IMG/VR virus record: IMGVR_UViG_3300044718_000056
Location: 1-29,524 of that record
DNA: 29,524 nt
From: a virus
Strand: one strand, 5' to 3'
Below the pieces are notes generated by a model that saw only the letters and a program-made list of their open reading frames with translations, was not told the DNA's origin and made no database searches. Below are positions 1-20,220 of the stretch, piece after piece; the stretch's first letter is position 1; each line of letters begins with the position of its first letter. Both the position numbers and the translations under genes were made by a program.

Positions 1-192
1 CGTTTGGTAGGCGCTTTGGGGTGAGGGCTGGGGTGAGGGTGCGGTTTGTGAGGGCAAATCATCTGACGGCTGAATCGCATTCAGCAAATCCGAGTTCGAT
101 TCTCGGTGGCTCCAGTCGGGACGGTTTGGATCTTCCAAACCGTCCCTTGTCGGAAATGAAGTTTCAGGTGCGGCGTCAGTCGGGTCTTGCAT
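1..192 (-). CDS. Replication initiator, N-terminal part (continues at 29397 across the circular junction)
   Basis: This is the 5' end of the gene whose body is at 27925-29524. Reading the minus strand from the ATG at 192-190, no stop occurs down to base 1, and the frame is exactly that of the long ORF. The first residues are MQDPTDAAPETSFPTRDG; the total on the circle is 554 aa. The start lies inside the end of int (int stop at 176-178), a 17-nt overlap suggesting translational coupling from int to rep. Codons 27-42 are the antisense of a tRNA 3' half, the presumed attachment core, so integration would sever this segment from the rest of rep. No strong Shine-Dalgarno stands before the ATG. 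The alternative is that rep starts at the TTG at 87 (=29484) inside the core and this segment is untranslated. Confidence 0.75.
   Translation of the reverse strand, partial: MQDPTDAAPETSFPTRDGLEDPNRPDWSHRESNSDLLNAIQPSDDLPSQTAPSPQPSPQSAYQT
18..39 (+). other. G-quadruplex motif, tandem 12-bp G-rich repeat
   Basis: Two near-identical 12-bp units (17-28 and 29-40, differing only in the last base) give four G-tracts separated by loops of 3, 2 and 3 nt: GGGG-TGA-GGG-CT-GGGG-TGA-GGG. This fits the canonical intramolecular G4 pattern with short loops. It lies 25 bp from the attachment core, on the template strand of rep, where it encodes the Ser-Pro-Gln-rich stretch of the Rep N-terminus. It is repeated at 29415-29436 because of the contig overlap. 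Whether it folds, or is only a low-complexity coding duplication, cannot be told from sequence. Confidence 0.6.
64..114 (+). other. attP: Attachment site attP core: 3' part of a tRNA-Ala(CGC)-like gene
   Basis: On the plus strand, 69-114 folds as the 3' part of a tRNA: anticodon stem GCTGA/TCAGC around the loop ATCGCAT (U33 present, anticodon CGC, A32-U38 as in bacterial tRNA-Ala), a 4-nt variable loop, T-stem CCGAG/CTCGG with T-loop TTCGATT, acceptor strand TGGCTCC and discriminator A. T70 would allow the G3:U70 identity pair of tRNA-Ala. No D-arm or 5' acceptor precedes it, so this is not a full gene. A partial tRNA 60 bp from the end of a tyrosine integrase gene is the standard layout of attP. 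The anticodon stem-loop is a usual core, so the 7-bp loop 74-80 may be the overlap region. A tmRNA 3' end is the main alternative. Confidence 0.85.
118..146 (+). terminator. 13-bp perfect hairpin directly after the tRNA 3' end
   Basis: Arms GGGACGGTTTGGA and TCCAAACCGTCCC are separated by TCT. It begins 3 nt after the tRNA discriminator base and is followed by TTGT only, so it is a weak intrinsic terminator by the U-tract rule. In the integrated state it would sit just downstream of the reconstituted tRNA-Ala and could end or protect that transcript. It also lies within the N-terminal coding part of rep (codons 16-25) between int and rep. Arm-type integrase or excisionase binding is another possibility. 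Confidence 0.5.
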
Positions 193-1348: not shown

Positions 1349-1369
1349 AGCCCTTTTGTCCGGCGACTT

Positions 1370-1387
1370 GCGCGGAATGTACCGCGC
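1370..1387. promoter_or_regulatory. Dyad over the putative int -10 box
   Basis: Arms GCGCGG and CCGCGC enclose the 6 bp AATGTA, which on the minus strand reads TACATT, the best -10 candidate for int. It abuts the palindrome at 1388-1413 with no gap. A protein bound here would block int transcription. Confidence 0.45.
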
Positions 1388-1403
1388 ATTTTTGGAATTG
1401 CAA
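1376..1403 (-). promoter_or_regulatory. Putative int promoter
   Basis: On the minus strand a -35-like TTGCAA (1403-1398), a 16-bp spacer and a -10-like TACATT (1381-1376) precede int by 27 nt. Each hexamer matches 4 of 6 consensus bases, so this is moderate support. In the circular form it would also serve rep and the early genes downstream. Confidence 0.4.
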
Positions 1404-1413
1404 TTCCAAAAAT
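1388..1413. promoter_or_regulatory. 26-bp perfect palindrome between int and the divergent regulator
   Basis: A perfect, gapless 26-bp palindrome centred on 1400/1401 with core GGAATTGCAATTCC and A/T-rich ends. It overlaps the -35 of the putative int promoter and lies 3 bp upstream of the -35 of the divergent regulator promoter. It is the best candidate operator for the lysogeny/excision switch. The ribbon-helix-helix product of the 1452 gene is an obvious candidate ligand, by position only. Confidence 0.7.
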
Positions 1414-1415
1414 TA

Positions 1416-1444
1416 TTGACTTTCGGGGTATGACCCGATAAAAC
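1416..1444 (+). promoter_or_regulatory. Putative promoter of the ribbon-helix-helix regulator, possibly leaderless
   Basis: TTGACT (1416-1421), a 17-bp spacer and TAAAAC (1439-1444). The expected start point is at or beside the ATG at 1452, and no Shine-Dalgarno lies between, so the mRNA may be leaderless, as lambda cI mRNA from PRM is. A further dyad, GGGT-ATG-ACCC (1426-1436, within 1424-1437), sits in the spacer and could be a second operator. Confidence 0.5.
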
Positions 1445-1451
1445 TCCTAAC

Positions 1452-1688
1452 ATGGTGGCAGCGATGGCTGATAAACCTCGTCCCGTTGGCCGGCCGCGGA
1501 AGTTCAAAGCTGGCGCGGTTAAATACATGTTCCTCATGCCAGAGGATCTCCACGGCGCAGTGGAGAAACATCGTGTTGATCGTGGATTGTCCGACCGTGC
1601 CGATGCACTTCGTGAGTTGCTTCGAGAAGTCGCGGAGTCACGCAAGCTGTTCCGGCACGCGGACGCGGGGTCAAAAACGCGTCCTTGA
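1452..1688 (+). CDS. Ribbon-helix-helix-like DNA-binding regulator
   Basis: 78-aa protein transcribed divergently from int. The pattern is GRPRKF, then a beta-strand-like segment VKYMFLMPEDL and two helices around RGLSDRADALRELLREV. This fits the ribbon-helix-helix (Arc/CopG) fold common in small phage and plasmid repressors, excisionase regulators and antitoxins. There is a second possible start at 1464 (MADKPRP). Flanking dyads and its divergent position make it the likeliest repressor or switch protein for int. No cI-like or XRE-type repressor is seen elsewhere. The fold is inferred from pattern, not from a database match. Confidence 0.65.
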   Translation: MVAAMADKPRPVGRPRKFKAGAVKYMFLMPEDLHGAVEKHRVDRGLSDRADALRELLREVAESRKLFRHADAGSKTRP

Positions 1689-2173: not shown

Positions 2174-2349
2174 TGAAACGCATCTTCACCTGGTGGCGGC
2201 GCTGGCTCTTTGAGGATCTTCCATCCTTCCTCTCCGTTGTTCCCATTGCGCGCGTTCACCAGGACGATCCGGATCCGGCCCGCGGCTTCGAAGTGGTTCC
2301 GTCTAAGTCTTCACCGTCCGGCGCTTTTCGGCCGGTCCCTCATCCATGA
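2173..2349 (+). CDS. Short ORF coupled to the membrane protein gene
   Basis: 58 aa beginning MKRIFTWWRRWLFEDL, with its ATG sharing the A of the preceding TGA (TGATG), a layout typical of translational coupling. The N-terminus is rich in Trp and Arg, then Pro-rich. Its end overlaps the 3' end of the convergent gene at 2303-2692 by 47 bp. No family recognised; it may be a chance ORF. Confidence 0.35.
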   Translation: MKRIFTWWRRWLFEDLPSFLSVVPIARVHQDDPDPARGFEVVPSKSSPSGAFRPVPHP

Positions 2350-2692
2350 TCTTCCGCAGTCCCTGGACAATCAGTTCCGCCCGCTTCATCTTGTGACGGC
2401 GGGCGTAACTATCGACTTGCTCAAGGAATCCCCGTTCCAGCGTCACGCCTACGACCTTGGCGCCCTGGCCGATCTTCGGCCGGCCGGCGCCTGGCTTGCG
2501 CTTGCGCCCCACGGCCCGCTCGAACTGGGCGCGTTCGGCCGGCGTCAAGGGACTCGTCTCCGAAAGTGGAACCTCGCGACTGAAGAATTGCTCCACCTTC
2601 TCCTGGTCCGCGGGGCTTAGCGCTTTCAGTTCCTCCGGCGTCGAAAACGGCGGGCATTGCAGCTTTGGCTTTTTCAGTTTTTTAGTTTTCAT
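2303..2692 (-). CDS. Ribbon-helix-helix-like protein, candidate antitoxin of the BrnT-like cassette
   Basis: 129 aa. The N-terminal part is Lys-rich and then helical (LKALSPADQEKVEQFF). After a basic GAGRP linker, the C-terminal 45 residues fit a ribbon-helix-helix unit (strand VVGVTLERGF, helices LEQVDSYARRHK and AELIVQGLRKI). It is last in a three-gene minus-strand operon headed by a BrnT-like toxin, with its start overlapping the preceding stop (ATGA). In known BrnTA modules the antitoxin BrnA also has an RHH DNA-binding part and autoregulates, so this is the natural antitoxin candidate. It is longer than BrnA and separated from the toxin gene by one ORF. Confidence 0.6.
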   Translation of the reverse strand: MKTKKLKKPKLQCPPFSTPEELKALSPADQEKVEQFFSREVPLSETSPLTPAERAQFERAVGRKRKPGAGRPKIGQGAKVVGVTLERGFLEQVDSYARRHKMKRAELIVQGLRKIMDEGPAEKRRTVKT

Positions 2693-3075
2693 AAGTGTTC
2701 TCGTTTGAGTGCTTCCTGCATTTCACCACGTCTCCAGGTCGGTCCAGTCTTGGCAATACGAACCGCTTCTTCGAGCGTCGCCGCCATCCCCCAGCAAGTC
2801 GATCGATCCCACGCTCCACCGTCCAGGCACCTCACGTCATAGCGCATCCCGCTTGGCCATGCCTTCAGCCATTCCGGACCCGTTCCCGTCTCAGTCTCGA
2901 TGTAGGGTCTGTCCCACCACGCACGCTGTCGGTCTGACCGCGCATCATTCGGCGTGTCGTCGAAACTCACGCCTAGCTTTGGATTCACCGCGATGCCGTC
3001 GACGACCTGCTCGCACTGAAAAACGAACTTCTCTTTGTCACCAAAGCAGTCTTCACCTTCGATGCTGACTTCCAT
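2689..3075 (-). CDS. Hypothetical protein in the BrnT-like operon
   Basis: 128 aa, acidic N-terminus (MEVSIEGEDCFGDKEKF) and several Trp and Cys residues. It ends TLEEAVRIAKTGPTWRRGEMQEALKREHL-like, a short amphipathic tail. The ATG at 3075 follows GGAGACCAAA; longer starts overlap the BrnT-like gene. It lies 26 nt after the toxin-like gene and overlaps the RHH gene by 4 nt, so the three genes form one translation unit. Not recognised; a third toxin-antitoxin component or an unrelated passenger are both possible. Confidence 0.6.
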   Translation of the reverse strand: MEVSIEGEDCFGDKEKFVFQCEQVVDGIAVNPKLGVSFDDTPNDARSDRQRAWWDRPYIETETGTGPEWLKAWPSGMRYDVRCLDGGAWDRSTCWGMAATLEEAVRIAKTGPTWRRGEMQEALKREHL

Positions 3076-3101
3076 TTTGGTCTCCTGTGTGGCCAACCCG
3101 T

Positions 3102-3359
3102 TCAGATGGGCATGGCGTGGTAGATGTAGATGTTGTCCCAGCGGTCGATGAAGAACAGGACTTGGAGCGTGCGGTTGCTGTTGGTGCGGCCCTTGACGAT
3201 CCAACTGTTGCTCTTGCTTTCCTCGTTCCATTTGTATTTCCGGGGAAACGGGGGCTTGGCGAACCGCACCACGTGCTCGGCCTCGTACTCACTGACGCGG
3301 TGCATGGCGATCTTCGCGCGGTTGTAGGCGTCCCAGCGGAAATCCCTGTCCTTCTTCAT
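3102..3359 (-). CDS. BrnT-like toxin family protein
   Basis: 85 aa. The shape follows BrnT, the RelE-fold ribonuclease of type II BrnTA modules: the N-terminal FRWD with basic residues and His in the helix (YNRAKIAMHRVSEYEAEHVV), a central strand ending in GRTNSNRTLQVLFFI, and a C-terminal strand IYIYHAMPI where BrnT proteins usually end in I-x-A-R-x. Assignment is by recalled pattern and is weaker in the middle. The ATG at 3359 is preferred to that at 3395 because the sequence between is a strong promoter (3367-3395); the mRNA would then start at the ATG. The gene heads an operon with an RHH protein. Phage-borne toxin-antitoxin modules can serve prophage maintenance or anti-phage defence. 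Confidence 0.6.
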   Translation of the reverse strand: MKKDRDFRWDAYNRAKIAMHRVSEYEAEHVVRFAKPPFPRKYKWNEESKSNSWIVKGRTNSNRTLQVLFFIDRWDNIYIYHAMPI

Positions 3360-3366
3360 GTAAATA

Positions 3367-3395
3367 AATATACAATGAATAAGGTGGGGCGTCAA
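3367..3395 (-). promoter_or_regulatory. Strong sigma70-type promoter for the BrnT-like operon, leaderless
   Basis: On the minus strand TTGACG (3395-3390), exactly 17 bp, then TATATT (3372-3367). The -10 ends 7 nt before the ATG at 3359, so transcription should start at about the initiation codon. The surrounding 3360-3416 is strongly A/T-rich in a GC-rich genome, with TATTCTT repeated just upstream of the -35. Confidence 0.75.
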
Positions 3396-3413
3396 GAATA
3401 AAATATAAGAATA

Positions 3414-3650
3414 TTAAGCCGTCTCGACGCTGCGGAGATTGAGCACTTTCCACCCCTCACCGAGTTCGAAGGATTTCTGCAACCGGCGCAACTGCTGCCG
3501 CGCAGCCTGGCGAGTTTGCTGGTCGCGGTGGCGCGTCGTGTTGCGCGAGCGCCGTTCACCGAACTGACTGGTGGCGAGCATCTCCAGCATCAACACTCCG
3601 GCGGTCCAGTCGAAGAACGCAATCACGTAGCTTCCGCGGTCGTGCGACAT
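3414..3650 (-). CDS. Small basic hypothetical protein with its own promoter
   Basis: 78 aa: a hydrophobic first third (YVIAFFDWTAGVLMLEML) and a basic middle rich in Arg and Gln (RDQQTRQAARQQLRRLQKSF). It is preceded by a good promoter (TTGACA-17-CAAAAT) whose -10 ends 6 nt before the ATG, and by a TGTTGTC/GACAACA dyad, so it appears to be an independently regulated single gene. No family recognised. Confidence 0.5.
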   Translation of the reverse strand: MSHDRGSYVIAFFDWTAGVLMLEMLATSQFGERRSRNTTRHRDQQTRQAARQQLRRLQKSFELGEGWKVLNLRSVETA

Positions 3651-3656
3651 GGGCGG

Positions 3657-3695
3657 ATTTTGGCATCGATGACGAATGTTGTCAAAACGACAACA
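3657..3695 (-). promoter_or_regulatory. Promoter and overlapping operator-like dyad for the 3414-3650 gene
   Basis: On the minus strand, consensus TTGACA (3685-3680), a 17-bp spacer and CAAAAT (3662-3657). The 7-bp inverted repeat TGTTGTC/GACAACA (3677-3695, 5-nt loop) overlaps the -35, the place where a repressor would act. The predicted start point is at the ATG, a third apparently leaderless promoter in this module. A short GGGG/CCCC hairpin at 3709-3721 upstream may end the preceding gene's transcript. Confidence 0.6.
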
Positions 3696-3737
3696 AAAGA
3701 CTGAGCACGGGGTTTCGCCCCTGGTGATCGGCGGCGG

Positions 3738-4154
3738 TCATTTGATCTGGTCGGCCAGCCGTCGCACTGCATCCACGAGTTGCACGTCGGCGTTGGCTTT
3801 GCGCTTCACGTATAGCTTCGGCGGCGTCTTTGTCTTGTTCGCGATTTCGTCGATCGCGTCCAGACTTAGGAACGTCTTCAAGGGATCGTTGCGCACCGTG
3901 AGTGCGCTGAGAAACTGCTGTCGGTCGATCTCTCCGGCTTCCCACATTTCCAACAGCCGCGCCGGCGGCACGCTGGTCTGTAGGCCTCCAGGCACGAGCA
4001 GGCCGACAAAGAAATCAGCCTCCACGTTCCTGATGTCGTTTTCGAGCATCCGGCCCTTGACCAGGCCGCGCAGCTTCTCGGCGTGGTGCGTTTCGAGCTC
4101 GTCAACGAAACCGATCTGGTCTACGCGCGCGTCGCGCGAAATGATCTGGTCCAC
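3738..4154 (-). CDS. Hypothetical protein after the tail operon terminator
   Basis: 138 aa from the GTG at 4154, chosen because GGGGG stands 5 nt upstream, the ribosome-binding site typical of the late genes; the longer ORF start lies beyond the terminator hairpin at 4179-4206. Rich in charged residues with an AIDEIANKTKTPPKLYVKRK segment near the C-terminus; no signal or membrane segment. No family recognised. It could be part of the late unit by read-through. Confidence 0.6.
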   Translation of the reverse strand: MDQIISRDARVDQIGFVDELETHHAEKLRGLVKGRMLENDIRNVEADFFVGLLVPGGLQTSVPPARLLEMWEAGEIDRQQFLSALTVRNDPLKTFLSLDAIDEIANKTKTPPKLYVKRKANADVQLVDAVRRLADQIK

Positions 4155-4178
4155 GCTTTCCCCCTTTGAATTGAAAGG

Positions 4179-4206
4179 CCGATGCCCCGGATGATCGGGG
4201 CATCGG
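4179..4206 (-). terminator. Hairpin terminator at the end of the tail operon
   Basis: 11-bp perfect stem CCGATGCCCCG/CGGGGCATCGG with a 6-nt loop, followed on the minus strand by CCTTTCAATT. The T-tract is short, so termination may be partial. It lies between 4276 (last tail-cluster gene) and the GTG at 4154. Confidence 0.6.
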
Positions 4207-4275
4207 CAACCTGTGCGCAACTTGGTGCGCAGTTGTGTGGTGACAACATACCGCAACTCAAAAGCCGGTGGAAGC

Positions 4276-4533
4276 TTACGATTTTTCCGGGGGTTCGTCG
4301 TTGAACCCCCCTCGTTCTCGAGAGAACGCGCGGTCCAACTCGGCGTTGAGCGCGGCGTCGGCCCGGTTCACGGCCTGGTCGATGCCGGCGATGGCGTCGT
4401 CCAGGTCGGACGCGGCGTCGTTGGTCTCATCCATCGACGCTAACGCATCGGAGGCCTCGACCACCTTGCGGCGGGCGGAGCGCAATGCTTCCAGGGCGGT
4501 GGTCAACAATTCATCCTCTGCGATGCTGGGCAT
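4276..4533 (-). CDS. Small helical hypothetical virion-cluster protein
   Basis: 85 aa, almost wholly Ala, Asp, Glu and Leu-rich helix with heptad-like spacing (residues 5-70), suggesting a coiled coil. The ATG at 4533 follows GGGGGGAAAA. It is the last gene of the tail cluster before the terminator, 21 bp after the large tail-tip candidate. Function unknown; a small structural or lysis-associated role is possible. Confidence 0.6.
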   Translation of the reverse strand: MPSIAEDELLTTALEALRSARRKVVEASDALASMDETNDAASDLDDAIAGIDQAVNRADAALNAELDRAFSRERGGFNDEPPEKS

Positions 4534-4554
4534 TTTTCCCCCCGTTTCAAGCGT

Positions 4555-6084
4555 TCAGTCAAAGCCACCCGTGACGTCCCAATCAACGATCATCAGTGAT
4601 GATCCGATTGACCACCCGGCGCCACCTCCCGGTGGAAGAGGTACGAACCCACCGGCGGAAGGATCCGAGAAATCTGTCGGGAACGCGGGAGAAAAAACCG
4701 ATCCGTCATCGGTCAGGGTCGTAGTGGAAGCTCCCGGTATTTGGTGCCACTGATGATACAACACGCCGTCGCCAAACGCGTCGAACTTGTTGATCGGCGG
4801 TCCCACTAAATCTTGCGGCGCGTCGTTCACTGCCTGAGCCCACACCCAAAAGCTAACCGTCCGGCTCAATGCGGAGACGGGTGATTGAGGTATGGCGCCG
4901 AAGTTGCCCCGCCTGCTGCTGGCTACAATGATGTCCCACGCCTCCCCCAGTTGTGTGTTGTGAAGGACGGATTTGCCCATGCCTCCCGGGCTTCCGGGGT
5001 GAGCAATGCTCGGATGTCCGATTCCGCTCGCGTAGTCGGCCTGGGCGTCGGCGGCGGTGAACGGTCCGAAGCCCGCATCGGCGTGGCCGGTGGCGTTCTG
5101 TCCATCGTCGGCGATCCCGATCGTTTGGACGCCTGAAACCGCATCCACCGCAACCACGCAAAACGTGGTGAGCGTCGCGCTGGCTAGTTGCGCGATGCCG
5201 ACGACGACACCTCCCCCGACCGTTCGCGTCATCATGTCGACCGCGTCCCTGAGCCGGTTGAGCCAGACGCCGTCCGGCAGGTCGTCGGTCCAGCAAAAGC
5301 TTGCCAGTGTCAGCGCCGTTGATGGCGCTAACCCGGTTCCGCCCGCATTCTGGTAGTCGGCCAAATCCTCGTGCAGATAATCGACCCCTGAATATTGATC
5401 CTCTGACACGGCCCAACCAGGATCACCCGACATAGCGGCATGGCCGGCGCCGTCCGTGTGAGCAACGTACTCCATCGTAACCCCACTCAAATGCTGTTGA
5501 TCATCTGGCGTTGTCGCGGTCTCTCCAAACAGAGGATCGGTGGCAGGGTGGGCCCAGAACGCGGTCCCGAGCCTGGCGGTGAATCGGGCACGCTGGCCGA
5601 TTGTCCCGGTGGTGTCGAGCTTCCAAATCTTCCGCGACCAACTGCGGTACCAGCCGGTCGTCGGCGGGAAAAGAATCGGTCCGGAGTCATCGGCGGTGAG
5701 TGACGGGAGGAAGCTCGCGCCCTCGATCACGAACGCGGACCCGTCCGCGTTTTTCGTCCTCGCGAAGTACGGCGCCATCAGGACCACCAGCGCCTGCAGC
5801 TTGGCCCAGCATTGTGTTTGGTATGTGGCGCCGTAGCTGAGAGTCAGCGGGTATTGGATCGAGGTATCATCACTGCCGTCGATCGGACTGACGATGATCG
5901 CGCCCCCGCTTCCATCGGGCTTGACCGTCGCAGCCAACGGCGCGAAGGTGGATCCGACCGCGTAGCAGCGTTGCAATATTTTGCGGGCGAACATGTTGTA
6001 GGCGCTGATGCTCTCATCGGTGGCGGCGTTGAACATGTCGACGCTCACCTGGTCGCGCCAGTCGCTAGCCCAAACGAAGCTCAT
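4555..6084 (-). CDS. Putative distal tail / receptor-binding protein
   Basis: 509 aa, rich in Gly, Ser, Thr, Asp and aromatic residues, with no signal peptide or membrane segment, as expected for a beta-rich virion protein. Position is the main evidence: it lies after the tape measure and two further tail genes, where siphophages encode tail-tip and host-recognition proteins. Two segments (about 165-215 and 395-470) contain many Trp and Gly. I do not recognise a family and no lytic domain is visible. Confidence 0.6.
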   Translation of the reverse strand: MSFVWASDWRDQVSVDMFNAATDESISAYNMFARKILQRCYAVGSTFAPLAATVKPDGSGGAIIVSPIDGSDDTSIQYPLTLSYGATYQTQCWAKLQALVVLMAPYFARTKNADGSAFVIEGASFLPSLTADDSGPILFPPTTGWYRSWSRKIWKLDTTGTIGQRARFTARLGTAFWAHPATDPLFGETATTPDDQQHLSGVTMEYVAHTDGAGHAAMSGDPGWAVSEDQYSGVDYLHEDLADYQNAGGTGLAPSTALTLASFCWTDDLPDGVWLNRLRDAVDMMTRTVGGGVVVGIAQLASATLTTFCVVAVDAVSGVQTIGIADDGQNATGHADAGFGPFTAADAQADYASGIGHPSIAHPGSPGGMGKSVLHNTQLGEAWDIIVASSRRGNFGAIPQSPVSALSRTVSFWVWAQAVNDAPQDLVGPPINKFDAFGDGVLYHQWHQIPGASTTTLTDDGSVFSPAFPTDFSDPSAGGFVPLPPGGGAGWSIGSSLMIVDWDVTGGFD

Positions 6085-6086
6085 TT

Positions 6087-6554
6087 TTAAGATCCTGAAT
6101 GAAAGCCGGGGTAATCCACGATCCAGCCGCCGACGGGCGTCAAGTCGTCCCCGATTTGTAGAACCTTCCCGCGGCCGGTTGCTGTAGGCAAGGCCGGCAG
6201 GAACCGGAAATAAGGTGTCCCGTCCGAATCGAACGACTGAAACATTCTCACGATGGTTCCGCTGGTGTTCACAATACCCGACTCAAACAAGGCGGTGGCA
6301 AACTTGGTGGTGGTCGTCCCGCTGCGACCTCCGGTTTTGTCGGTCAAGTCGCCCTCGCCGTCTTCGGTCTGCTCTGTCCAGGCGTACTGCGTCGGCGTTC
6401 CTCCGTCGTTGTCCCCCAGCTTGGCCGGGAATTCGCGGTTGCTGTACGATCGCTTCTGCGACCCTTGCCCACGGCGGCCGTCTGGCGCATCGAGGACCTG
6501 GTTGACCGCTTTGACGATCTTCTTTGCTCCAGCGCTTGTGAATTTGGCGGCCAT
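6087..6554 (-). CDS. Hypothetical tail-cluster protein
   Basis: 155 aa. Lys-rich N-terminus (MAAKFTSAGAKKIVKAVNQV), then a polar Gly/Thr/Asp-rich part and a C-terminal part that looks beta-rich (TIVRMFQSFDSDGTPYFRF). The start overlaps the stop of the preceding gene by one base (TGATG). Its size and place suggest a minor tail or baseplate component. Not recognised. Confidence 0.6.
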   Translation of the reverse strand: MAAKFTSAGAKKIVKAVNQVLDAPDGRRGQGSQKRSYSNREFPAKLGDNDGGTPTQYAWTEQTEDGEGDLTDKTGGRSGTTTTKFATALFESGIVNTSGTIVRMFQSFDSDGTPYFRFLPALPTATGRGKVLQIGDDLTPVGGWIVDYPGFHSGS

Positions 6555-7483
6555 CAGGATAACCCATCGAAAAGCCCGCTCAGATCTGCTTCGTCGGGGC
6601 TGTAGAAGTCGAGATACTCAGGATCGGCGTCGGCATCGAGCTTGGCGCCCATTCCGTCCAGGCGGGCTGGCGCTGACAGCAACTGCCCGTCTGTATCCAT
6701 CAACTGCTTGATCTTCGTCGCGTCGTCCGGATCGATTTCGTAATAACCCTGGTCGAGCACGTGCTCAACGAATGTGTCATCGCGGCCGATCAGCGTGATT
6801 TGCACTTTCCAGACGGGCGTGGAGTCATCATCCAGCTTGAGCGTGGTCGACATGCTGATCTCATCGCAAAGCAGTTGGCGGGCGTCGTAGGTGCGCGACA
6901 TCCCCTTAATGTCGAAGCTCACGCCGCTATCGTTGACCTTGCCTCGCAGGCCGGCAAAAGTTCCGCTGTCGGCGCTGGTCGTGTTGTAGGAGATCTCGAT
7001 GATCTCGTCGTAGTGCGTTTCGGGAATCGAAGGGTCGAACGGTTGCTTGGCTGAGTTCACGACGTCGATGGGGTTCCCGTCTGAGTCCTTCGACTGATAC
7101 ATGGTCTGGGTGACCTTCTGTCCCTTGATCGAGATATCGATGTTCCACTTCGAAGTGTCCGGCGGCTGGAACACGAACTTCCGGGTGAACTGCACCTGCA
7201 CCTCGAACACATACGGGCTTTCGGTGGATCGCCGCGGAGTGGATTGCGTGCATTTGAAACCGGCCTGGCCATCGACGGTGTAGAGGCTCCCTGGCAACGG
7301 CACGAAGTTTCCACTCATGATGCTGGCGCTGGCCGCGGCGAGAATGGCCGGCTGCGCTCCGGTCGCGTCGTCGACGACGATAAAAGTGCGCAGAAGCTGT
7401 TGCGTAACATTCCCCTGGTCGTCGGACGTGGTGGTGGCCTGGTCCTGGCGCTTGGTGTCGTAATAGATTTTGCTCCAGGCCAT
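6554..7483 (-). CDS. Putative minor tail protein following the tape measure
   Basis: 309 aa from the ATG at 7483 (GGGGG 6 nt upstream). A beta-rich sequence with repeated segments of the type FVFQPPDTSKWNIDISIKG and WKVQITLIGRDD. It starts 10 bp after the tape measure stop, the slot of distal tail or tail-tip hub proteins in lambda-like tails. No family match recalled; the assignment rests on order. Confidence 0.55.
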   Translation of the reverse strand: MAWSKIYYDTKRQDQATTTSDDQGNVTQQLLRTFIVVDDATGAQPAILAAASASIMSGNFVPLPGSLYTVDGQAGFKCTQSTPRRSTESPYVFEVQVQFTRKFVFQPPDTSKWNIDISIKGQKVTQTMYQSKDSDGNPIDVVNSAKQPFDPSIPETHYDEIIEISYNTTSADSGTFAGLRGKVNDSGVSFDIKGMSRTYDARQLLCDEISMSTTLKLDDDSTPVWKVQITLIGRDDTFVEHVLDQGYYEIDPDDATKIKQLMDTDGQLLSAPARLDGMGAKLDADADPEYLDFYSPDEADLSGLFDGLS

Positions 7484-7493
7484 GCCTTGCCCC

Positions 7494-9248
7494 CTATCCG
7501 GCGTCCACAACCTCGTCCGCGTTCTGGTCTGCGTTCATCTGGTAGCGATAGATCTCCTGCAAGTAGAAAGTGGACTTCTTCACGTCCTCCTGCTGCATTT
7601 TGCTGGTGCGCACCAGGTCCTTGATCGGATCGGCTTTCTCCGGCTCTTTTGCTGGGCCCTTAAAATCAAACCGTCGCGTCTCGGCGCCGGTTTTCTTGTC
7701 GGCGGTGAGATCCTTGAAACTCGATTGCAGTTCCTTGTTGGCTTTTCCCACGCCGTCGGCGTAGGCCTTGGCATCGAGCAAGCCCTCGCCCTGCAACTTG
7801 TCGAGTTTGGCAAGCTGGTCCTGGTATTTGTCCAGAGGTCCCCGCGCGTCCTCGATCAGCTTCTTGGCCTCTTCCTGGTCTTTCTTAAAATCCTCCAGGT
7901 GCTTGAGCTGCTCGGAGAGGGCGTTTGCCTTGGCGATGTCGGCCGGCTTGGCGTTGAGCGCTTTGAGCTCGTTGATTTTCTTCTCGGCCTCGGTCAGTCC
8001 GAAACCCGATACCTCGGCCTGCATCCCTTTGATGATCTCATCGATCTTCTTTTGCGCGATGCCGAACCCCTCGGCGATCGGGCTGGCAATGTCGGCCTTG
8101 TGCGCGGCGATGTGCTGGGCGGTCTCATCGTGCTTCTTCTTGATCCCGTCAAAGAACGAATCGACCTTGTCCTGGTTGCTGCCGATGCTGGCGGCGGCAT
8201 CACCCGTCTGCTTTTCCAGGCCTTGGCGCGTCTGTTTCACGACGTCGATCGCTTCGCTGATCCATGCGGGTTTCTCCCATTTGGTTTTGCTCAGCTTATT
8301 GTGGACCCACACCAGGCCTTCTGCGACGGCGCCCACACCGCGCAGGATTAGTTCCATGCCTCCCACGATGATTGTGGCCGTCGCCAGCACACCTGTCTTG
8401 AGCACAAGGTACGCATCCATCACGATCGCGACACCCTTGGCGATGTAGTGCAGACCGGTGGAAATCTTTTCGGCCATCGCGTCGGCCGGCGGCACAAGCC
8501 CGACGATTTTCTCAGCCAATTCTGAAATGAGCGGCGCCACCGCGATCGCGATTTTGTTCTGCAAACCCTCGAAGGCCATGTTGATGTCTTCGATCTTCTC
8601 ATGCGCCTCGACCAGCTTGGCGGCATCGGTCTCCGACAGTGCCAGCCCGAACTTGTGCGCTTTGGCCGCGGCCTCCTCAAGGCCTGCCCCGCCGGCGGCG
8701 AAAATCGGATGGAGCTTTTGGCCTTCTTTCCCGAAGATCTCAAGTTCGGCCCGTGCCTGGGCAAGCGGGTCCTTGATGCCGTGTATTTTCTCGGCGATCA
8801 GTTTGAAAACTTCATCGGGTTTTTTTCCCTCCAGGTCTTTGGCGCTGATGCCGATTTCCTTCAATGCGTCGGCGGCGGGCCCGGCGCCCTCGCGCGCCTC
8901 GGCCAGCCCCTTCATCATGTGCATCAGCGCATGGTTGAATTCCTCGGTATCCAGTCCAGCCATGCGGCCGGCAACCTGCAGCTCCTGCAAACTGGCGGTG
9001 GTGATTCCCAGCGACGCGCTGGTGCGGTACGCGGCCGTGCCGGCTTTGATGACTTCCTCGGTGACGCTCTTGAGTTTCTCCAGGGCGATGGCGAACCCCA
9101 GCGCTTCGAAGGCATGTTTGAAGTTTTCGCCCAGATTCTTAGCGTGCTCCCCGGTTTCCTTCATCTGCTTGCGCGTCTGCTCAAGCCCCTGCTTCAGCTC
9201 CGCGTTCTGGGCTTCCATCTTCAGGATGACTGAACCCATCGTTCCCAC
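7494..9248 (-). CDS. Tail tape measure protein
   Basis: About 584 aa. The N-terminus is helical and coiled-coil (KMEAQNAELKQGLEQTRKQM), followed by Ala-rich helices with the features typical of TP901/lambda-type tape measures (ASLGITTASLQELQVAGRMAGL, then EEFNHALMHMMKGLAEA). A hydrophobic segment lies at about residues 275-315, and the second half is rich in Lys and Glu helices. It is short for the family, implying a short tail tube if length scales as usual. Start: the GTG at 9248 stands 6 nt after GGGGG; the ATG at 9239 is the alternative. It follows the frameshifted chaperone pair, as in lambda. Confidence 0.9.
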   Translation of the reverse strand: MGTMGSVILKMEAQNAELKQGLEQTRKQMKETGEHAKNLGENFKHAFEALGFAIALEKLKSVTEEVIKAGTAAYRTSASLGITTASLQELQVAGRMAGLDTEEFNHALMHMMKGLAEAREGAGPAADALKEIGISAKDLEGKKPDEVFKLIAEKIHGIKDPLAQARAELEIFGKEGQKLHPIFAAGGAGLEEAAAKAHKFGLALSETDAAKLVEAHEKIEDINMAFEGLQNKIAIAVAPLISELAEKIVGLVPPADAMAEKISTGLHYIAKGVAIVMDAYLVLKTGVLATATIIVGGMELILRGVGAVAEGLVWVHNKLSKTKWEKPAWISEAIDVVKQTRQGLEKQTGDAAASIGSNQDKVDSFFDGIKKKHDETAQHIAAHKADIASPIAEGFGIAQKKIDEIIKGMQAEVSGFGLTEAEKKINELKALNAKPADIAKANALSEQLKHLEDFKKDQEEAKKLIEDARGPLDKYQDQLAKLDKLQGEGLLDAKAYADGVGKANKELQSSFKDLTADKKTGAETRRFDFKGPAKEPEKADPIKDLVRTSKMQQEDVKKSTFYLQEIYRYQMNADQNADEVVDAG

Positions 9249-9262
9249 TGGCCACCCCCTTT

Positions 9263-9616
9263 CTATTCCCACGTCAAACCTAGCGATTTCACGGCGTTAT
9301 TAACCTGGTTCTGCACGACCGCGGCCGCCGCGGTGGGATCGGCCGCGGCGTCGCGCCACGTTCTGCCCCAGTCCATCATGAAATCCGATGCCGCGAAGGC
9401 CTCGGCGTTCTTGTCCCGGTGGATGTTAGCCAGCGTCTGCGCGACGATCGCGTTGGCCAGTTCTCCCCGCGCGGCGCTGTCGATCGGCTCCAGGCGGTCG
9501 AACGCTTCCCATTCGGCAAGTTCCCCGCTATCCGTTTCCTCCAGCAATCTTCTGACGGTCATCTTCAGCGCCCGGGCCAGCCGGAAGTAAAACAGCCGGC
9601 CCGGCCGCTTCAGGAG
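9263..9616 (-). CDS. Tail assembly chaperone, -1 frameshift extension (lambda T-like)
   Basis: This is the -1 frame reached from the slippery site at 9622-9616. It continues LLKRPGRLFYF and then MTVRRLLEETDSGELAEWEAF, which matches the lambda T/DUF4035 type (R-ELL-E-DS-EL-EW-A---LEPI, then LANIHRD, then DFM-DW). The fusion product would be 231 aa. An internal ATG at 9562 could give a separate 99-aa protein. In lambda, G and G-T bind the tape measure and recruit tube protein in a fixed ratio; here the next gene is the tape measure and the tube gene lies upstream. Confidence 0.85.
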   Translation of the reverse strand, partial: LLKRPGRLFYFRLARALKMTVRRLLEETDSGELAEWEAFDRLEPIDSAARGELANAIVAQTLANIHRDKNAEAFAASDFMMDWGRTWRDAAADPTAAAAVVQNQVNNAVKSLGLTWE

Positions 9617-9957
9617 TTTTTTGTCAGTTCGTCCACATCCTGCTTGGTCAGCCCATTGACCTTGGCTGCCAGCGTGTAGAGTCGATCGAGTTCCCGGCTG
9701 TCCATCTCCGACAACTGGACGATGTCATCCTCGGTGAACACGCGGTCCCCCTGGTCATCGGACAACGTCTTGACCACCAGCTTGGCCCGGAACTGTTCCT
9801 TGACCATTTTGCCGTCATTGTAGACTTGTCCCTCGAACTGATCGCGCTCGGTTCCGGTCATGACGCGGATATTGCAAGCCACACCCCACGCGAGCGTGGG
9901 TTCCAGCTTGTTCTTGTTCGCGATCGCGGCCGCGAGGATCTGATCTTTAAGGCTCAT
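9610..9957 (-). CDS. Tail assembly chaperone, zero-frame product (lambda G-like)
   Basis: 115 aa from the ATG at 9957 (GGAG 9 nt upstream); it ends TKQDVDELTKNS at the slippery site. A small, charged protein with a TGTERDQFEGQVYNDGKMV segment, as in siphophage GpG-type chaperones of the tail-accessory families. It is cytoplasmic, binds the tape measure during tail assembly and is absent from virions in characterised phages. Frameshifting at its end yields the longer G-T form. Confidence 0.85.
   Translation of the reverse strand: MSLKDQILAAAIANKNKLEPTLAWGVACNIRVMTGTERDQFEGQVYNDGKMVKEQFRAKLVVKTLSDDQGDRVFTEDDIVQLSEMDSRELDRLYTLAAKVNGLTKQDVDELTKNS
9616..9622 (-). promoter_or_regulatory. Programmed -1 ribosomal frameshift site, A AAA AAC
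   Basis: On the minus strand the last sense codons read ACA AAA AAC TCC TGA, giving the slippery heptamer A AAA AAC in the correct zero-frame phasing four bases before the stop. About 11 nt downstream the RNA can form a GC hairpin (CCGGGCC with GGCCCGG, enclosing GCCGG with CCGGC). After a -1 slip the frame is open and joins the T-like ORF at 9562. Confidence 0.85.
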
Positions 9958-10033
9958 TCGCTGCTCCGTGTAAAGAAAACTCAATTCGACCGGCTCCCCG
10001 GCTCGGCCGCGATCTGGGCGACGGCGGAAAATC

Positions 10034-11158
10034 TCAGGCCGGGGCGTGCTCGGCTGGCTGCGCTGCCGGCGGATCTACAATGCTCGTCCCCGTTTCCGTC
10101 ACGTCCGGATTCTGATTCGGCGCTTTGGCGAACATGGGCTTGAGCGTGATCCCGGCTTTGGTCCGCTGGCGCACATTTCCCGTGAGCGTGGCGCTACTGT
10201 TCCCGTCCACCGTGATATCGGTCTGGCCCTCGTCGACGACAAACGTGTTATGGTCGATGCTGGCGCTGACTCCCTGCTTCACCGCGATGTGCGGGTCTTT
10301 GTCCAGGGGCATCGGGAAAACGTTCCCGCTGACCGTGATGGACGCGTTGGTTCCAGCGCGCGTTCCTTTCGACTGCCCGGCCCGCATGTAGGGGAGGATC
10401 TTGTTCCCGCTGATTGTTGCTTGGCCCATCCGGATCGCGATGGCTTCCTTGTTGTAAGCGTTGCGGTCATTGCCCACATAGTTGGCCTGGATGATCGCGC
10501 CGGTTGGGATGCGGCCGTTCTGGTCAACGTCGCTGCGCAGGCAGTCTTCCCCGATGCTGCCCTCGAAGTGGCTGTTGGTGATCTTGATTCGGTCAGCCAT
10601 CCAGTAGACCGTCACGCCGTTGGTGAGTCCGCAAGTTACCTTGTCCACCTTGGCGTCGGATCCTCCGATGTCGCACAGCAACAAAGTATTGATCCCGGTT
10701 CCCGCGGCCGCGTTCACGTCGGGCACGATTAGGTCGTGCAGGTAGGTTCCCAGCGCATAGGTGCGCACACACACGACACCGCGCTTGATGGTTCCCCCGT
10801 GCAATTCGAAGTTAATGCCGTTCACCCGGATGTCGCTGGTAGCGTCCGGCGGCGGGAACATCGCTAGAACCGCTCCATTCAGGTTCAGGCTGACATTGTT
10901 GGCTTTGACGACCGGAAGGCCGTTCATCGCCCATTGTCCCGGCTCAAGGGTAATGACGGCGTTATCGTGGGCGCTGTTCAGGGCGGCGACCAGGTCGGAA
11001 CCGAGTGGCAGCAATGGCACTGGTGCCGGCGTGGGCGTTGGTGTTGGTGTGGGGACGGGAAACCATGCGGCTTCACAAGCAATGCAGGCGTGCTGCCAGC
11101 CGGCGTTGAACTCTGGGCTTTGTCCGGCGGGCACGGTAGGCAATGTGGTCGGATTCAT
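10034..11158 (-). CDS. Right-handed beta-helix (pectate-lyase-like) virion protein
   Basis: 374 aa. A short N-terminal domain (about 35 aa, with Cys25 and Cys28) is joined by a Pro-Thr repeat linker (residues 35-47) to a domain of short repeating strands with N-ladder-like turns (NNVSLNLNG, RVNGINFELHGGTIKRG, KITNSHFEG, TISGNKILP, TVSGNVFPM, SIDHNTFVV, TLTGNVRQR). This is the pattern of parallel beta-helix proteins such as tailspike depolymerases and pectate lyases. A capsule- or polysaccharide-degrading or binding role is likely. Its place between the tail tube and the chaperone genes is unusual for a tailspike. Confidence 0.75.
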   Translation of the reverse strand: MNPTTLPTVPAGQSPEFNAGWQHACIACEAAWFPVPTPTPTPTPAPVPLLPLGSDLVAALNSAHDNAVITLEPGQWAMNGLPVVKANNVSLNLNGAVLAMFPPPDATSDIRVNGINFELHGGTIKRGVVCVRTYALGTYLHDLIVPDVNAAAGTGINTLLLCDIGGSDAKVDKVTCGLTNGVTVYWMADRIKITNSHFEGSIGEDCLRSDVDQNGRIPTGAIIQANYVGNDRNAYNKEAIAIRMGQATISGNKILPYMRAGQSKGTRAGTNASITVSGNVFPMPLDKDPHIAVKQGVSASIDHNTFVVDEGQTDITVDGNSSATLTGNVRQRTKAGITLKPMFAKAPNQNPDVTETGTSIVDPPAAQPAEHAPA

Positions 11159-11227
11159 GGCGTGTCTTTCGAGAGAGGAGAAAGAAAGAAATTGAACGTT
11201 TCGCGAATGGCTGAACGATCGAGCGTT

Positions 11228-11878
11228 TTACGTACCGCTGACGGCGCCGGCCAAATCTCCCAACTGGTTGGCCAGCTTGGCGGCTGCCGGCGGAAGCGCC
11301 GGCGCGAGTCCAGCGGCGGCGGTTTGAACGACCTTGGCGACTCCAGGAACGTTCTGCGCGGCGGGATGATTGAGAAGATCAATGATGGCGGGCGCAATGG
11401 CGGCGCCTGCGGTAATGATGCTGCCGGCGATGGGACTGCCGGCCTGGGTGACCAGGTTACTGACTTCCGGAGCAGCCGCGGCAATCGTGTCCTCGGCGGC
11501 GTCGGCCCGGCTCTTGTGGCTCGCGCGGCTCCAGGCGAGTACTCCGGCCGACAGTGCGAGGATCGCATTCAGCGCCAATGAGCCGTATGGCACCATCGAC
11601 ACCAGCGCGCCGATAACGGGATTGCTTCCTCCGGTGGTGATGACGGTGGCTAATTCACCCGGCACGTTGCGCGGCGTGGCCGGCGACGCCGGCGTGGCTG
11701 GCTTGGCCGGCGGCGTCGGCGGCGTGGCTGGCTGTGACGTCGGTTGCGTGGTGGCGGCGTGTGGCGCGAACTCCGGCGCAGCCTGGTCGAGGGCTGCGCA
11801 GCCTGGTTCGCAGAACAGCACGGCAGCGCCCGCGATAAGAGCGAGCGCGGCGAATAAGACGATGGATCTGAGCTTCAT
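11228..11878 (-). CDS. Signal-bearing Ala/Pro-rich membrane-associated protein, possible holin or spanin-like
   Basis: 216 aa from the ATG at 11878 (GGGGGGAACC just upstream). The N-terminus MKLRSIVLFAALALIAGAAV is a signal peptide or anchor, with two Cys following but no proper lipobox. Residues 40-70 form a Thr/Gln/Pro/Ala-rich linker; then come two hydrophobic segments (about 93-116 and 145-165) and an Ala-rich tail. Export is likely. It lies between the tail tube and beta-helix genes and could be a lysis protein or a membrane-acting virion protein; the sequence does not decide. Confidence 0.55.
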   Translation of the reverse strand: MKLRSIVLFAALALIAGAAVLFCEPGCAALDQAAPEFAPHAATTQPTSQPATPPTPPAKPATPASPATPRNVPGELATVITTGGSNPVIGALVSMVPYGSLALNAILALSAGVLAWSRASHKSRADAAEDTIAAAAPEVSNLVTQAGSPIAGSIITAGAAIAPAIIDLLNHPAAQNVPGVAKVVQTAAAGLAPALPPAAAKLANQLGDLAGAVSGT

Positions 11879-11930
11879 GGTTCCCCCCAAAAAAAGTGAC
11901 GGCAGAAACGTGCGCAAAGCTGCGCATGAT

Positions 11931-12347
11931 TTATGATAATGTGAAGACAGCGTCGCCGCTGACGGTGAGCTTGAAGTCGCAGCTCATTTCCTGCTTAAGT
12001 GGCGTCTCGTCCCCCAGCTCGCTCATGAAGGCGGCGAACGCGCTGGTGCTGGTCCCGTCCGGACGGACGAACTTCCAGAATTTCGGGACACCCACCATTG
12101 CTTCGAGCGCGACGCGCTTGTCCTTGTCGTAAACCACCTTCACGTCCCAATCCCCCACGTCCTTCCAGCCGGGGATTTTTTCGCCGAACAAATCGGGCGA
12201 GTCATTGCGTTGGATGACGATCTTCTCGACGACTTTTTTGCCCGGCTTCAAATCCAGGATCTCCGCGATCGGAGCGTAGGTTCCTCCGGACGTGGCGCTG
12301 GATGAAAGTGCGTACCCAAACCCGATTGCTGCTTTTGTCGCGGCCAT
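11931..12347 (-). CDS. Major tail tube protein
   Basis: 138 aa, start ATG at 12347 after GGGGGAAAT. Sequence such as EILDLKPGKKVVEKIVIQRNDS and KIPGWKDVGDWDVKVVYDKDKR fits the lambda gpV/phage tail tube fold: beta-sandwich strands with the G-W-x-D-x-G-D-x-x-V motif that lies in the long loop of tube proteins. The gene follows the tail terminator, in the conserved order terminator - tube - chaperones - tape measure. Monomers would stack in hexameric rings. Confidence 0.85.
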   Translation of the reverse strand: MAATKAAIGFGYALSSSATSGGTYAPIAEILDLKPGKKVVEKIVIQRNDSPDLFGEKIPGWKDVGDWDVKVVYDKDKRVALEAMVGVPKFWKFVRPDGTSTSAFAAFMSELGDETPLKQEMSCDFKLTVSGDAVFTLS

Positions 12348-12356
12348 ATTTCCCCC

Positions 12357-12773
12357 TCAGTCGGTCGTGTACCAAATGTTGAATGAACACTCGCGCACGA
12401 AATACAGGATCTCTTCGGTCTGTGGCTCAGTGATGACGTCGTCACTGATGCCGTCTTCCTTCAGGAAGCTCCCCTGGACTGTGATCCCGCTCCAGACTCC
12501 TTTTTGCGAATCAAGCACGGCCTCCAGCGCGTCGGCGATCTCGGTGGCGGCTTCGTGCGTCTCCGCGATCGCAGCAATGACGATGTCGCAATTGCGCAGG
12601 CCTGTCGGCCCGTCGTTGGCGGTGAGATTGGTCTGATTCTGCACCTTGTACACGGCCAGCGGGTAATCCTTGTTGTTCTGCCGGTCGTACTCCGGAAACA
12701 GCCGGTCGACGATCAACGCGGCGATGTCTCCGTCTGCCAGCAACTTCGCGACTACCGCGGCTTCAATGCTCAC
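12357..12773 (-). CDS. Tail terminator / completion protein (DUF3168-like)
   Basis: 138 aa, beginning SIEAAVVAKLLADGDIAALIVDRLFPEYDRQ and continuing YPLAVYKVQNQTN, the usual profile of DUF3168-type tail completion proteins (lambda U-like position). The GTG at 12773 overlaps the stop of the previous gene (GTGA) and has GGAGG upstream. It would cap the tail tube at the head-proximal end and interact with the head-tail joining proteins encoded just before. Confidence 0.85.
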   Translation of the reverse strand: MSIEAAVVAKLLADGDIAALIVDRLFPEYDRQNNKDYPLAVYKVQNQTNLTANDGPTGLRNCDIVIAAIAETHEAATEIADALEAVLDSQKGVWSGITVQGSFLKEDGISDDVITEPQTEEILYFVRECSFNIWYTTD

Positions 12774-13213
12774 TTGCCGCCTCCGGCTTTCAGTTCCTCG
12801 TCAGTCAATTGCTTCCAGGCGTCGATGGTTGTCTGTGCGGCCTCGTCGCTCGATTCGTCGAACGCGCGCTTCAGAAAATCGTTGGCCGGCACCATCTTCC
12901 TGGCGTCTCCCAGCGCTCGGCGGCCGACCCGGTGTCCGTACAACACGAACGATGCGTAGAAGGCCTCGCCCGCGTAATCCTTCGCACTCACCCCCACGGT
13001 GATCGTCGTCTTGTCCTTGCTGCGCTTGCCGGCCCGCACCTTGATATTGCGCTTGGTGCGGCCGCTCCAGGATGGCGCCTCCCCCTGCGATGCGCTCTTC
13101 AACACTTGTCCACCGGCACGAAGGCCCTTGCGGATGATCTTGCGCTCCATGGCCTTGTCCAACCTGTCGAGGTTGGCGATGGCTTCCTTCATGCCGGTGA
13201 GTTCCGCTTTCAT
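12770..13213 (-). CDS. HK97 gp10-like tail-head joining protein
   Basis: 147 aa. A helical N-terminus (MKAELTGMKEAIANLDRLDKAM), then RKGLRAGGQVLKSAS and TGRLKRNIKV-like SGRTKRNIKVRAG, and a later GHRVGRRALGDARKMVPANDFLKRAFDE: the typical HK97-gp10 (neck/tail completion) profile, including the pattern of a buried VGVSAKDYAGEAFYASFVLYG strand. The start overlaps the stop of the adaptor gene by 4 nt. It stands in the conserved connector order gp6 - adaptor - gp10 - terminator - tube. Confidence 0.85.
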   Translation of the reverse strand: MKAELTGMKEAIANLDRLDKAMERKIIRKGLRAGGQVLKSASQGEAPSWSGRTKRNIKVRAGKRSKDKTTITVGVSAKDYAGEAFYASFVLYGHRVGRRALGDARKMVPANDFLKRAFDESSDEAAQTTIDAWKQLTDEELKAGGGK

Positions 13214-13644
13214 CCTGGCACGCTCGTTCCTTCAACCATCTGGAACCGCTTCTGGGCATCGAGTTCGATGATCGCGGAAATCCGGTAATGCGTCGGTTTC
13301 TCGGCCGGCGCTCCCGTCATCGATAGCAAATCCTCGGCGGTGAGCGCGGCGAGTTCATCGGCCGTCAGGTCCAGCAAGTCGTCAGCCAGCGCGCCGTACC
13401 GCAACCGGTGTTTGACGGTCAGTCCCGCGAAATAGCGGATCACGATCGTCGTGTGTCCGACGTTGGCCCGGGTCCCGGCCTGCTGAATCGAAATTGTCTC
13501 ACCACTCTTGTCTTGGATCTTGGCCCACCTCATCCCCACCAAACCCCAGTTCTGCTGCACCTGGTTGTGGCTGTCGCGCGACTCACTGAGGACTTTCTCA
13601 ATGTAGATCCGCTGGCGCAGTTCTCCGATGTTCGGCAGATTCAT
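13210..13644 (-). CDS. Head-tail adaptor (SPP1 gp16 / HK97-type stopper-like)
   Basis: 144 aa from ATG 13644. The N-terminus GELRQRIYIEK, the central WAKIQDKSGETISIQQAG and VGHTTIVIRYFAGLTVKHRLRYG strands fit the phage head-tail joining family; THYRISAIIELDAQKRF near the end is the usual last strand pair. Between these lies an unusual insertion of about 30 residues with repeated L-T-A-(D/E) units. The longer ORF start upstream overlaps the small membrane protein gene and is unlikely. Confidence 0.8.
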   Translation of the reverse strand: MNLPNIGELRQRIYIEKVLSESRDSHNQVQQNWGLVGMRWAKIQDKSGETISIQQAGTRANVGHTTIVIRYFAGLTVKHRLRYGALADDLLDLTADELAALTAEDLLSMTGAPAEKPTHYRISAIIELDAQKRFQMVEGTSVPG

Positions 13645-13649
13645 TGCTC

Positions 13650-13871
13650 TCACCGGTGTTCCAGGATCTTCATCACCACGGCCACCAGGCTGGCGATCGA
13701 TGCGCCAACCGCGGAGCGCGTCCACCAGGTCCGACGCTTGTCGGTCTGTTCCAGGCGGTCGACGCGCACGATCAAACCCTTGGCGGGGTCGGCTGCTGTC
13801 CCGCAAACGGTCTTACGAATTTCCGCCACGTCATCGCGTATGGCTCTCAAATCGGCTCTGATCTGTTCCAT
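13650..13871 (-). CDS. Small coiled-coil membrane protein, XhlA/holin-like
   Basis: 73 aa. An N-terminal amphipathic helix (MEQIRADLRAIRDDVAEIRKTV), a second helix VDRLEQTDKRR, then a single C-terminal membrane segment SAVGASIASLVAVVMKIL. This is the build of XhlA-type hemolysin/holin partners and of many small phage holins. The ATG at 13871 has GGGGGAGG just upstream; a GTG at 13898 overlapping the preceding stop is an alternative. A lysis gene inside the head-tail connector cluster would be out of place, so the function is uncertain. Confidence 0.6.
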   Translation of the reverse strand: MEQIRADLRAIRDDVAEIRKTVCGTAADPAKGLIVRVDRLEQTDKRRTWWTRSAVGASIASLVAVVMKILEHR

Positions 13872-13894
13872 GGCCTCCCCCTCTCCCCCTGTAC

Positions 13895-14497
13895 TCACCC
13901 CACTGGCACCTGACGCGACTTCAACCTGTAGAACGCTTCCAGCGAATGCGGCACGGCCGTGATCGTGCGGTCGGTGGCTGACTGCCTCTGCTCATACATC
14001 AGCCCAACGTGCACGCGGATGGCCTGCATGATGTCTGCCGGCACGTTTGTCGCTGCGTCTCCAAATCCGGCCTGGTAGACCACGGCGAGCGATCGGCGCG
14101 GCAACTGCTGAATGACCGGGTAATTGTCCCAAATGGCCATGTAGGGCATCGGCAAGCGCCAGCTCGGGCAAATGATCTGGTCGTACCGGCCGTAGCGCTC
14201 CAGCGTGTAACCCGGATGGGCGCCGTCCTGGTCGGTGACGCTGGTGATGCTCTGCACCGGCCCGCGCGGCAGCGTCAGACTTGGCCCATCGTCCAGGAAG
14301 AACGTCGCGGTGATCGTGCGCGTGACCAGGCTGGCGTAGAGCGCTTCCTCGGCGTACTCGGTCGCTGCGGCAACCAGCGAGTTCACGTAATTCTGCTCGG
14401 CAGTCAGCGCTTGCACGTCCGAGTCGATGCGCAAGTGGTACGCGATGTCGCTGAACGCGAAGAGCGCTGAACCTGGAGCGGTCTGCGACCATTTCAC
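13895..14497 (-). CDS. Head-tail connector protein (HK97 gp6-like)
   Basis: 200 aa, GTG start at 14497 behind GGGGCCGGAA. The N-terminus has the gp6 pattern of helices (AYHLRIDSDVQALTAEQNY, then VNSLVAAATEYAEEALYASLV), a middle part with LPRGPVQSITSV strands (the typical L-P--PV-SI-SV of this family), and a C-terminal helix PADIMQAIRVHVGLMYEQR. It would form the ring docking onto the portal after packaging. First gene after the strong terminator that follows the capsid gene. Confidence 0.85.
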   Translation of the reverse strand: MKWSQTAPGSALFAFSDIAYHLRIDSDVQALTAEQNYVNSLVAAATEYAEEALYASLVTRTITATFFLDDGPSLTLPRGPVQSITSVTDQDGAHPGYTLERYGRYDQIICPSWRLPMPYMAIWDNYPVIQQLPRRSLAVVYQAGFGDAATNVPADIMQAIRVHVGLMYEQRQSATDRTITAVPHSLEAFYRLKSRQVPVG

Positions 14498-14517
14498 GTT
14501 CCGGCCCCTTCCGTTCT

Positions 14518-14559: not shown

Positions 14560-14598
14560 ACCTGGCGGGCTTCCCCCCCTGGCGGTCTTCCCCCCGCT

Positions 14599-18211: not shown

Positions 18212-18221
18212 TGTTCCCCCG

Positions 18222-20204: not shown

Positions 20205-20220
20205 ATTTCCCCCCTGCAAA

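Follow-up and report, generated by a model that had tools for sequence, protein, structure and literature searches.

A tRNA-Ala-like putative attachment site between the int and rep genes may place the replication and lytic genes of a tailed phage under excision control

We propose that the first 192 nucleotides of the viral record IMGVR_UViG_3300044718_000056 hold an attachment site (attP) located between the integrase gene (int) and the replication initiator gene (rep), such that integration parts, and excision rejoins, int and its control region on one side and rep and the lytic genes on the other. We give this proposal a slightly better than even chance of being correct, and by analogy with the archaeal virus SNJ2 (PMC13107129) it would probably represent SNJ2-like gating of an operon in a tailed phage. 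The proposal is built on the sequence of the window (the whole 29,524-nt stretch that was analyzed), its topology, the identity of the tRNA-derived core and the directions of the genes. It further supposes that the core is used as attP, that the crossover is positioned within it, that rep has no other promoter and that transcription would read through the core. The operon-level effect is independent of the position at which rep starts and does not require Rep itself to be cut. If excision does link the control region with rep and the lytic cluster, then the lysis-lysogeny decision in this group would depend on recombination as well as on repression, and a replication switch that has so far been shown in SNJ2 would extend to tailed phages.

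Results

Gene order on a circular molecule

Bases 1-127 are identical to bases 29398-29524, and this exact 127-bp terminal repeat indicates a circular molecule of 29,397 bp. Almost all of its genes are on the minus strand (Table 1), with the plus strand used only at 1452-2173 where the gene for an RHH-like small protein and one other gene diverge from int. Read around the circle on the minus strand, the order is control region, int, a hairpin, the tRNA-like core, a 63-base arm and rep, which is followed by early genes, terminase, portal, protease, capsid and tail genes down to 2303. Gene packing is tight, with 18 of the 39 intergenic gaps being zero or negative. The region from which int and the RHH-like gene diverge contains a perfect 26-bp palindrome (1388-1413) that is a likely operator candidate.

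The Rep protein is weakly identified as a winged-helix, lambda-O-like initiator by an HTH_36 match (1.4e-4) whose 22 bits fall short of the cut-off of 25, and by a match to phrog_270 (replication initiation, 2.6e-4). The lambda O gene contains its own origin iterons, and rep likewise has repeats inside the initiator gene, in this case 45-nt tandem repeats that appear iteron-like and would place a replication origin within rep. We found no Rep relatives in viral contigs, phages or plasmids, nor in 13 records that have related integrases. A blastn search with two 8-kb pieces against phages found no close phage relatives, and searches of viral contigs with the terminase and Int, each as a single query, also found no close relatives. 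An alignment search with the terminase returned 80 remote matches, none of which has int or Rep homologues.

Table 1. Positions of the features discussed in the text
Feature	Position	Strand	Evidence or remark
Left arm of putative attP	1..63	.	direct repeats TGGGGTGAGGG at 17-27 and 29-39
Core of putative attP, tRNA-Ala(CGC) 3' half	64..114	+	Rfam, fold, complete tRNA-Ala genes sharing the 3' end
Perfect 13-bp hairpin in the gap between core and int stop	118..146	.	-24.2 kcal/mol; T-tract on neither strand
Tyrosine integrase (int), 390 aa	176..1348	-	Pfam Phage_integrase 5.8e-16; phrog_1 1.2e-28
Divergent control region, int (-) versus small RHH-like gene (+)	1349..1451	.	presumed regulatory role
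RHH/CopG-like small protein, candidate repressor	1452..1688	+	weak: Pfam RHH_1 0.06, phrog_4738 0.0097
Other early and structural genes, all sharing the strand of rep	2303..27716	-	
Capsid	14599-15939	-	
Protease	16014-16685	-	
Portal	16682-18211	-	
Terminase	18222-20219	-	
First gene after rep	27713..27928	-	start overlaps rep stop (ATGA)
Rep body, winged-helix initiator-like	27925..29524	-	frame runs on past the junction of the circle, as far as 327
4.3 in-frame 45-nt tandem repeats within rep	28750..28942	-	TTGGAGT-N5-ACTCCAA palindromes

A tRNA-Ala 3' half adjoins the integrase gene

The tRNA-like core at 64-114 that had been noticed in the original prediction proved to be real. Specifically, the Rfam tRNA family RF00005 matches positions 50-114 on the plus strand, perfectly in register along the 3' half, at a score of 20.1 bits that falls below the family's gathering score of 29. 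The core is composed of a GCTGA/TCAGC stem, an anticodon loop (ATCGCAT) that reads CGC, a T-arm (CCGAG-TTCGATT-CTCGG) and the acceptor strand TGGCTCC followed by an A, with no CCA encoded. The T-arm and acceptor end, CGAGTTCGATTCTCGGTGGCTCCA, is also present in complete tRNA-Ala genes elsewhere, and this identity together with the CGC loop marks the core as a tRNA-Ala(CGC) 3' half without encoded CCA. There is no complete tRNA within the window. The core is located 62 nt beyond the int stop, with the tRNA 3' portion adjoining an intact tyrosine integrase gene.

The flanks of the core contain additional sequence features. The left arm has an 11-nt direct repeat, TGGGGTGAGGG, which is reached within 63 nt by only 1 of 2000 single-base shuffles and whose copies are possible arm sites for the integrase. 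On the opposite flank, the hairpin in the gap before int is a possible terminator for either the tRNA side or int. A palindrome, TGACGGCTGA-TACTTAT-TCAGCCGTCA, is also present at 1686-1712 where it overlaps the stop of the RHH gene, and shares TGACGGCTGA..TTCAGC with the attP core (64-85) at identical spacing; it could be a second core-like site for the integrase or else a chance terminator. A 14-nt match to the core inside rep (28193-28206) was attributed to chance. Finally, the break point of the record, as marked by the 127-base end repeat, spans the entire core, for which a random break has a chance of about 77 in 29,397. The core may be present elsewhere in the sample, in host tRNA genes or integrated copies, and thereby have broken the assembly graph at this point.

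A scan of 84,980 genomes with two patterns found no host tRNA matching the core, and the same scan yielded neither an integrated copy nor attL/attR, a host or an attB tRNA. This would fit a tRNA-like stretch that is not a working attP, either as a relic or in a phage that integrates elsewhere or rarely, but we consider this very improbable given that the stretch adjoins an intact tyrosine integrase gene, has the correct 3'-half architecture and has counterparts arranged in the same way in five phages whose integrases are related.

Integration would sever rep from the int control region

When a tyrosine integrase uses a tRNA gene as its target, integration restores the tRNA beside int and moves the other side of the attachment site to the far end of the prophage. 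In this phage the integrase would recombine inside the tRNA-Ala 3' half, so that the restored tRNA gene of the prophage would adjoin int. The opposite end, facing host DNA and severed from the int control region, would carry rep with its internal origin together with all of the lytic genes. Excision would join the control region, int, core, rep and lytic genes in a single direction, and by virtue of this joining the replication genes would be readable from the int side in the circle only. A rep gene that is translated from upstream of the core would itself be cut by integration, and with translation from downstream only the operon would be cut.

The topology that underlies this mechanism had been predicted and holds on the circle. 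Int and rep are on opposite sides of the core and have the same reading direction, thus after integration int would remain, together with its promoter region, beside the restored tRNA, and rep would be at the other end along with all of the genes that follow it. The further claim that excision rebuilds an int-rep-early operon is supported in part, by the precedent of SNJ2 (PMC13107129) and by the same gene order in four of the five phages that combine a related integrase with a recognizable core. No promoter-like site near int or rep passed our scan, which is a weak one that has hosts with other promoters outside its range, and a private rep promoter is therefore possible in the left arm or in the host flank. 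What also speaks against gating is that the hairpin at 118-146 could halt int transcripts ahead of rep.

The open frame across the core and the start of rep

The minus-strand rep frame was confirmed on the circle to be open past ATG 192, across the core (64-114) and on to the TGA that ends at 27925. This frame opens at 327, inside int, and is bounded upstream by a stop at 330-328. An ATG is indeed present at 192, with the described 17-nt overlap with the int stop (176-178), but it is not the first start of the frame as ATG 237 precedes it, and numbering that begins at ATG 192 places the core at codons 27-43 rather than codons 27-41. The original prediction took the open frame as support for a split initiator, and this argument does not hold. 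Openness through the core is not remarkable, being no more than expected by chance: 56% of dinucleotide shuffles are open over 189-115 and 70% over 63-1, two of the three antisense frames of the fixed core are open, and in 40 of 43 distinct tRNAs one or more antisense frames run open over the 3' 51 nt. Open frames over antisense tRNA cores are routine, and we caution that by themselves they are no proof of a split gene; the frame found here neither shows nor refutes that rep is cut.

Candidate starts for rep are ATG 237, ATG 192, TTG 138, TTG 87, TTG 57 and ATG 29325, which have Shine-Dalgarno (SD) energies of +0.4, -3.5, -4.5, -3.0, +0.4 and -2.8, respectively. The corresponding value for int is -3.2 and the median of the other genes is -5.4, a control set in which 4 of 25 starts were misplaced and are not start codons. 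SD-like pairing does not decide among the rep starts. Codon statistics favor a start at or after 29394, as the stretch 192-58 scores -0.12 bits per codon in the codon model versus 0.27 for real genes (lowest 2.5%) and the stretch 63-1 scores -0.31, with the cumulative score going from +2.9 for a start at 29325 down to -9.0 for a start at 192. A single-sequence AlphaFold model of the Rep N-terminus, with a pLDDT of 40 that makes it a weak hint only, has its first strand at about residue 50 of the 532-aa reading. The ATGs ahead of this predicted fold are all upstream of the core, and a start at ATG 29325 would cut the first helix predicted by this low-confidence model. A helix also precedes the HTH in the distant, O-like Rep of L109, one of the phages with a related integrase, according to a weak alignment that BLASTP does not detect. 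Together, the predicted fold and the L109 helix speak against ATG 29325 and would be compatible with starts at 237, 192, 138, 87 and 57.

If translation of rep begins at ATG 192 (or TTG 138) and proceeds through the core, then integration would cut the initiator gene and full-length Rep would be made from the circle only. The frame is open throughout, the SD energy of ATG 192 is close to that of int, and the other standard starts before the predicted fold are ATG 237, with its SD energy of +0.4, and the TTGs at 87 and 57. Tight gene overlaps are also common in this phage, as described above, and in SNJ2 the attP-spanning orf26 is translated and required for replication (PMC13107129). However, the openness matches chance, the codon scores of 192-58 and 63-1 are poor, the 29-nt perfect palindrome would fall in the coding part, the rep-like protein of L109 has 35 residues before HTH_36 versus about 99 here, and a rep gene across the core is conserved in no relative. 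On balance we regard translation through the core as unlikely. We are more doubtful still of the broader hypothesis of a split initiator gene in a tailed phage, in which full-length Rep and the coupled lytic operon would exist only in the excised circle with excision as the lytic switch.

A position of attP without regulatory effect would result if rep starts after the core, at TTG 57 or ATG 29325, under a separate promoter, located in the left arm or the rep 5' region, that the phage repressor controls in both the integrated and excised states. Codon statistics favor a start at or after 29394, attP beside int is the usual layout, and open antisense tRNA frames are common. Set against this are the absence of a promoter-like site there, in what is a weak scan, and the presence of an obvious control region with a palindromic operator upstream of int. 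In addition, TTG 57 has no SD and ATG 29325 cuts the predicted first helix. We hold this alternative to be improbable, and prefer gating of the operon by excision, which would operate with either start.

Gene order in phages with related integrases

Integrases that are 26-40% identical to Int are present in other viral contigs, and five such phages (L099, L104, L111, L103 and L109) have a recognizable tRNA 3' half antisense to int. The core is 150-165 nt past the int stop in L099, L104 and L111, 392 nt past it in L103, and inside the 3' part of the int open reading frame (ORF) in L109. Conservation of an open frame through attP had been thought informative about a split rep. The int-strand frame is indeed open through the core in all five phages, but the next gene is rep in none of them, indicating that the open frame is the rule and no mark of a split rep.

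In four of the five phages (L099, L103, L109 and L111) the genes past the core have the same direction as int, and two of these four include a rep-like gene; L104, with minus-strand genes past the core, is the exception. In L109 the gene after int overlaps the int stop (GTGA) and the row reaches an HTH_36 initiator (9038-10210) that is akin to phage O proteins. In L103 the row past the core consists of an exonuclease, RecT and a second exonuclease followed by a phrog_270 match, and in L099 and L111 the in-line order comes from ORF calls with most genes having no family match. Use of the L109 rep as a further query found loci, none of which have related integrases. The int-core-early layout is not universal, since L098/L102 has its primase upstream of int. 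Its recurrence among related integrases nevertheless makes gating testable across several genomes.

Two of these contigs have additional features at their tRNA sequences. L102 is a prophage contig with an intact tRNA-Tyr whose 3' end is towards the int end, which is the arrangement expected of an attL side from the logic of tyrosine integrases. In L109 (5467-7143) the int ORF traverses the 3' half of an antisense tRNA-Met(CAT), extending Int past its catalytic domain, and this extension would be altered by integration.

Discussion

Replication operons that are created by excision are already known from SNJ2, and related switches are known from phage BPs, Tn916 and ICEKp1. Genetic analysis in 2026 showed that int and the replication genes of SNJ2 form one operon only after excision, and that replication depends on orf26, a translated ORF that lies across attP immediately after int (PMC13107129). 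As in SNJ2, int of the present phage would be joined to replication genes over attP only in the circle, with rep within the joined operon, and an open frame that may be translated spans attP just after int. The two viruses differ in that SNJ2 is a haloarchaeal pleolipovirus, a membrane virus whose rolling-circle Rep is encoded at the distal end of the operon and in which orf26 rather than rep spans attP (PMC13107129), whereas the phage described here is tailed, has a putative lambda-O-like initiator directly after attP and would be gated as judged from its gene arrangement. The statement in the original prediction that no such system has been described therefore stands for the initiator as the split gene, of which we found no description in the open-licence literature, but not for excision-made replication operons.

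Mycobacteriophage BPs and its relatives exhibit integration-dependent immunity, with attP inside the repressor gene (PMC4557955). The likeness is that attP lies in an ORF next to int, so that integration alters the encoded protein in BPs and might do so here. In BPs it is the repressor that is split, with the C-terminal cut giving a stable active form (PMC4557955), whereas the putative target here is the N-terminus of an initiator. For the conjugative transposon Tn916, transfer transcripts that run through the joined att site require circularization, as cited in PMC6540685; the genes concerned there are transfer genes as opposed to the replication and lytic genes of this phage. In ICEKp1, integration into a tRNA gene changes the promoter that reads the gene beside att, but the switched gene is int itself, which changes promoter with integration state and is driven by the host tRNA promoter (PMC13023037). 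Phage Ms6 similarly has a tRNA-Ala 3' end as its attB, differing in a crossover located in the T-loop and in having no link to a replication gene (PMC1762012).

Additional observations

The terminase large subunit has an HNH endonuclease domain in its N-terminal part (residues 76-118); in the L105 record, the HNH and TerL matches are in two separate adjacent frames. A minus-strand gene at 21802-22923 codes for a glycosyltransferase family 9-like protein (Pfam 8.2e-5, barely above the cut-off).
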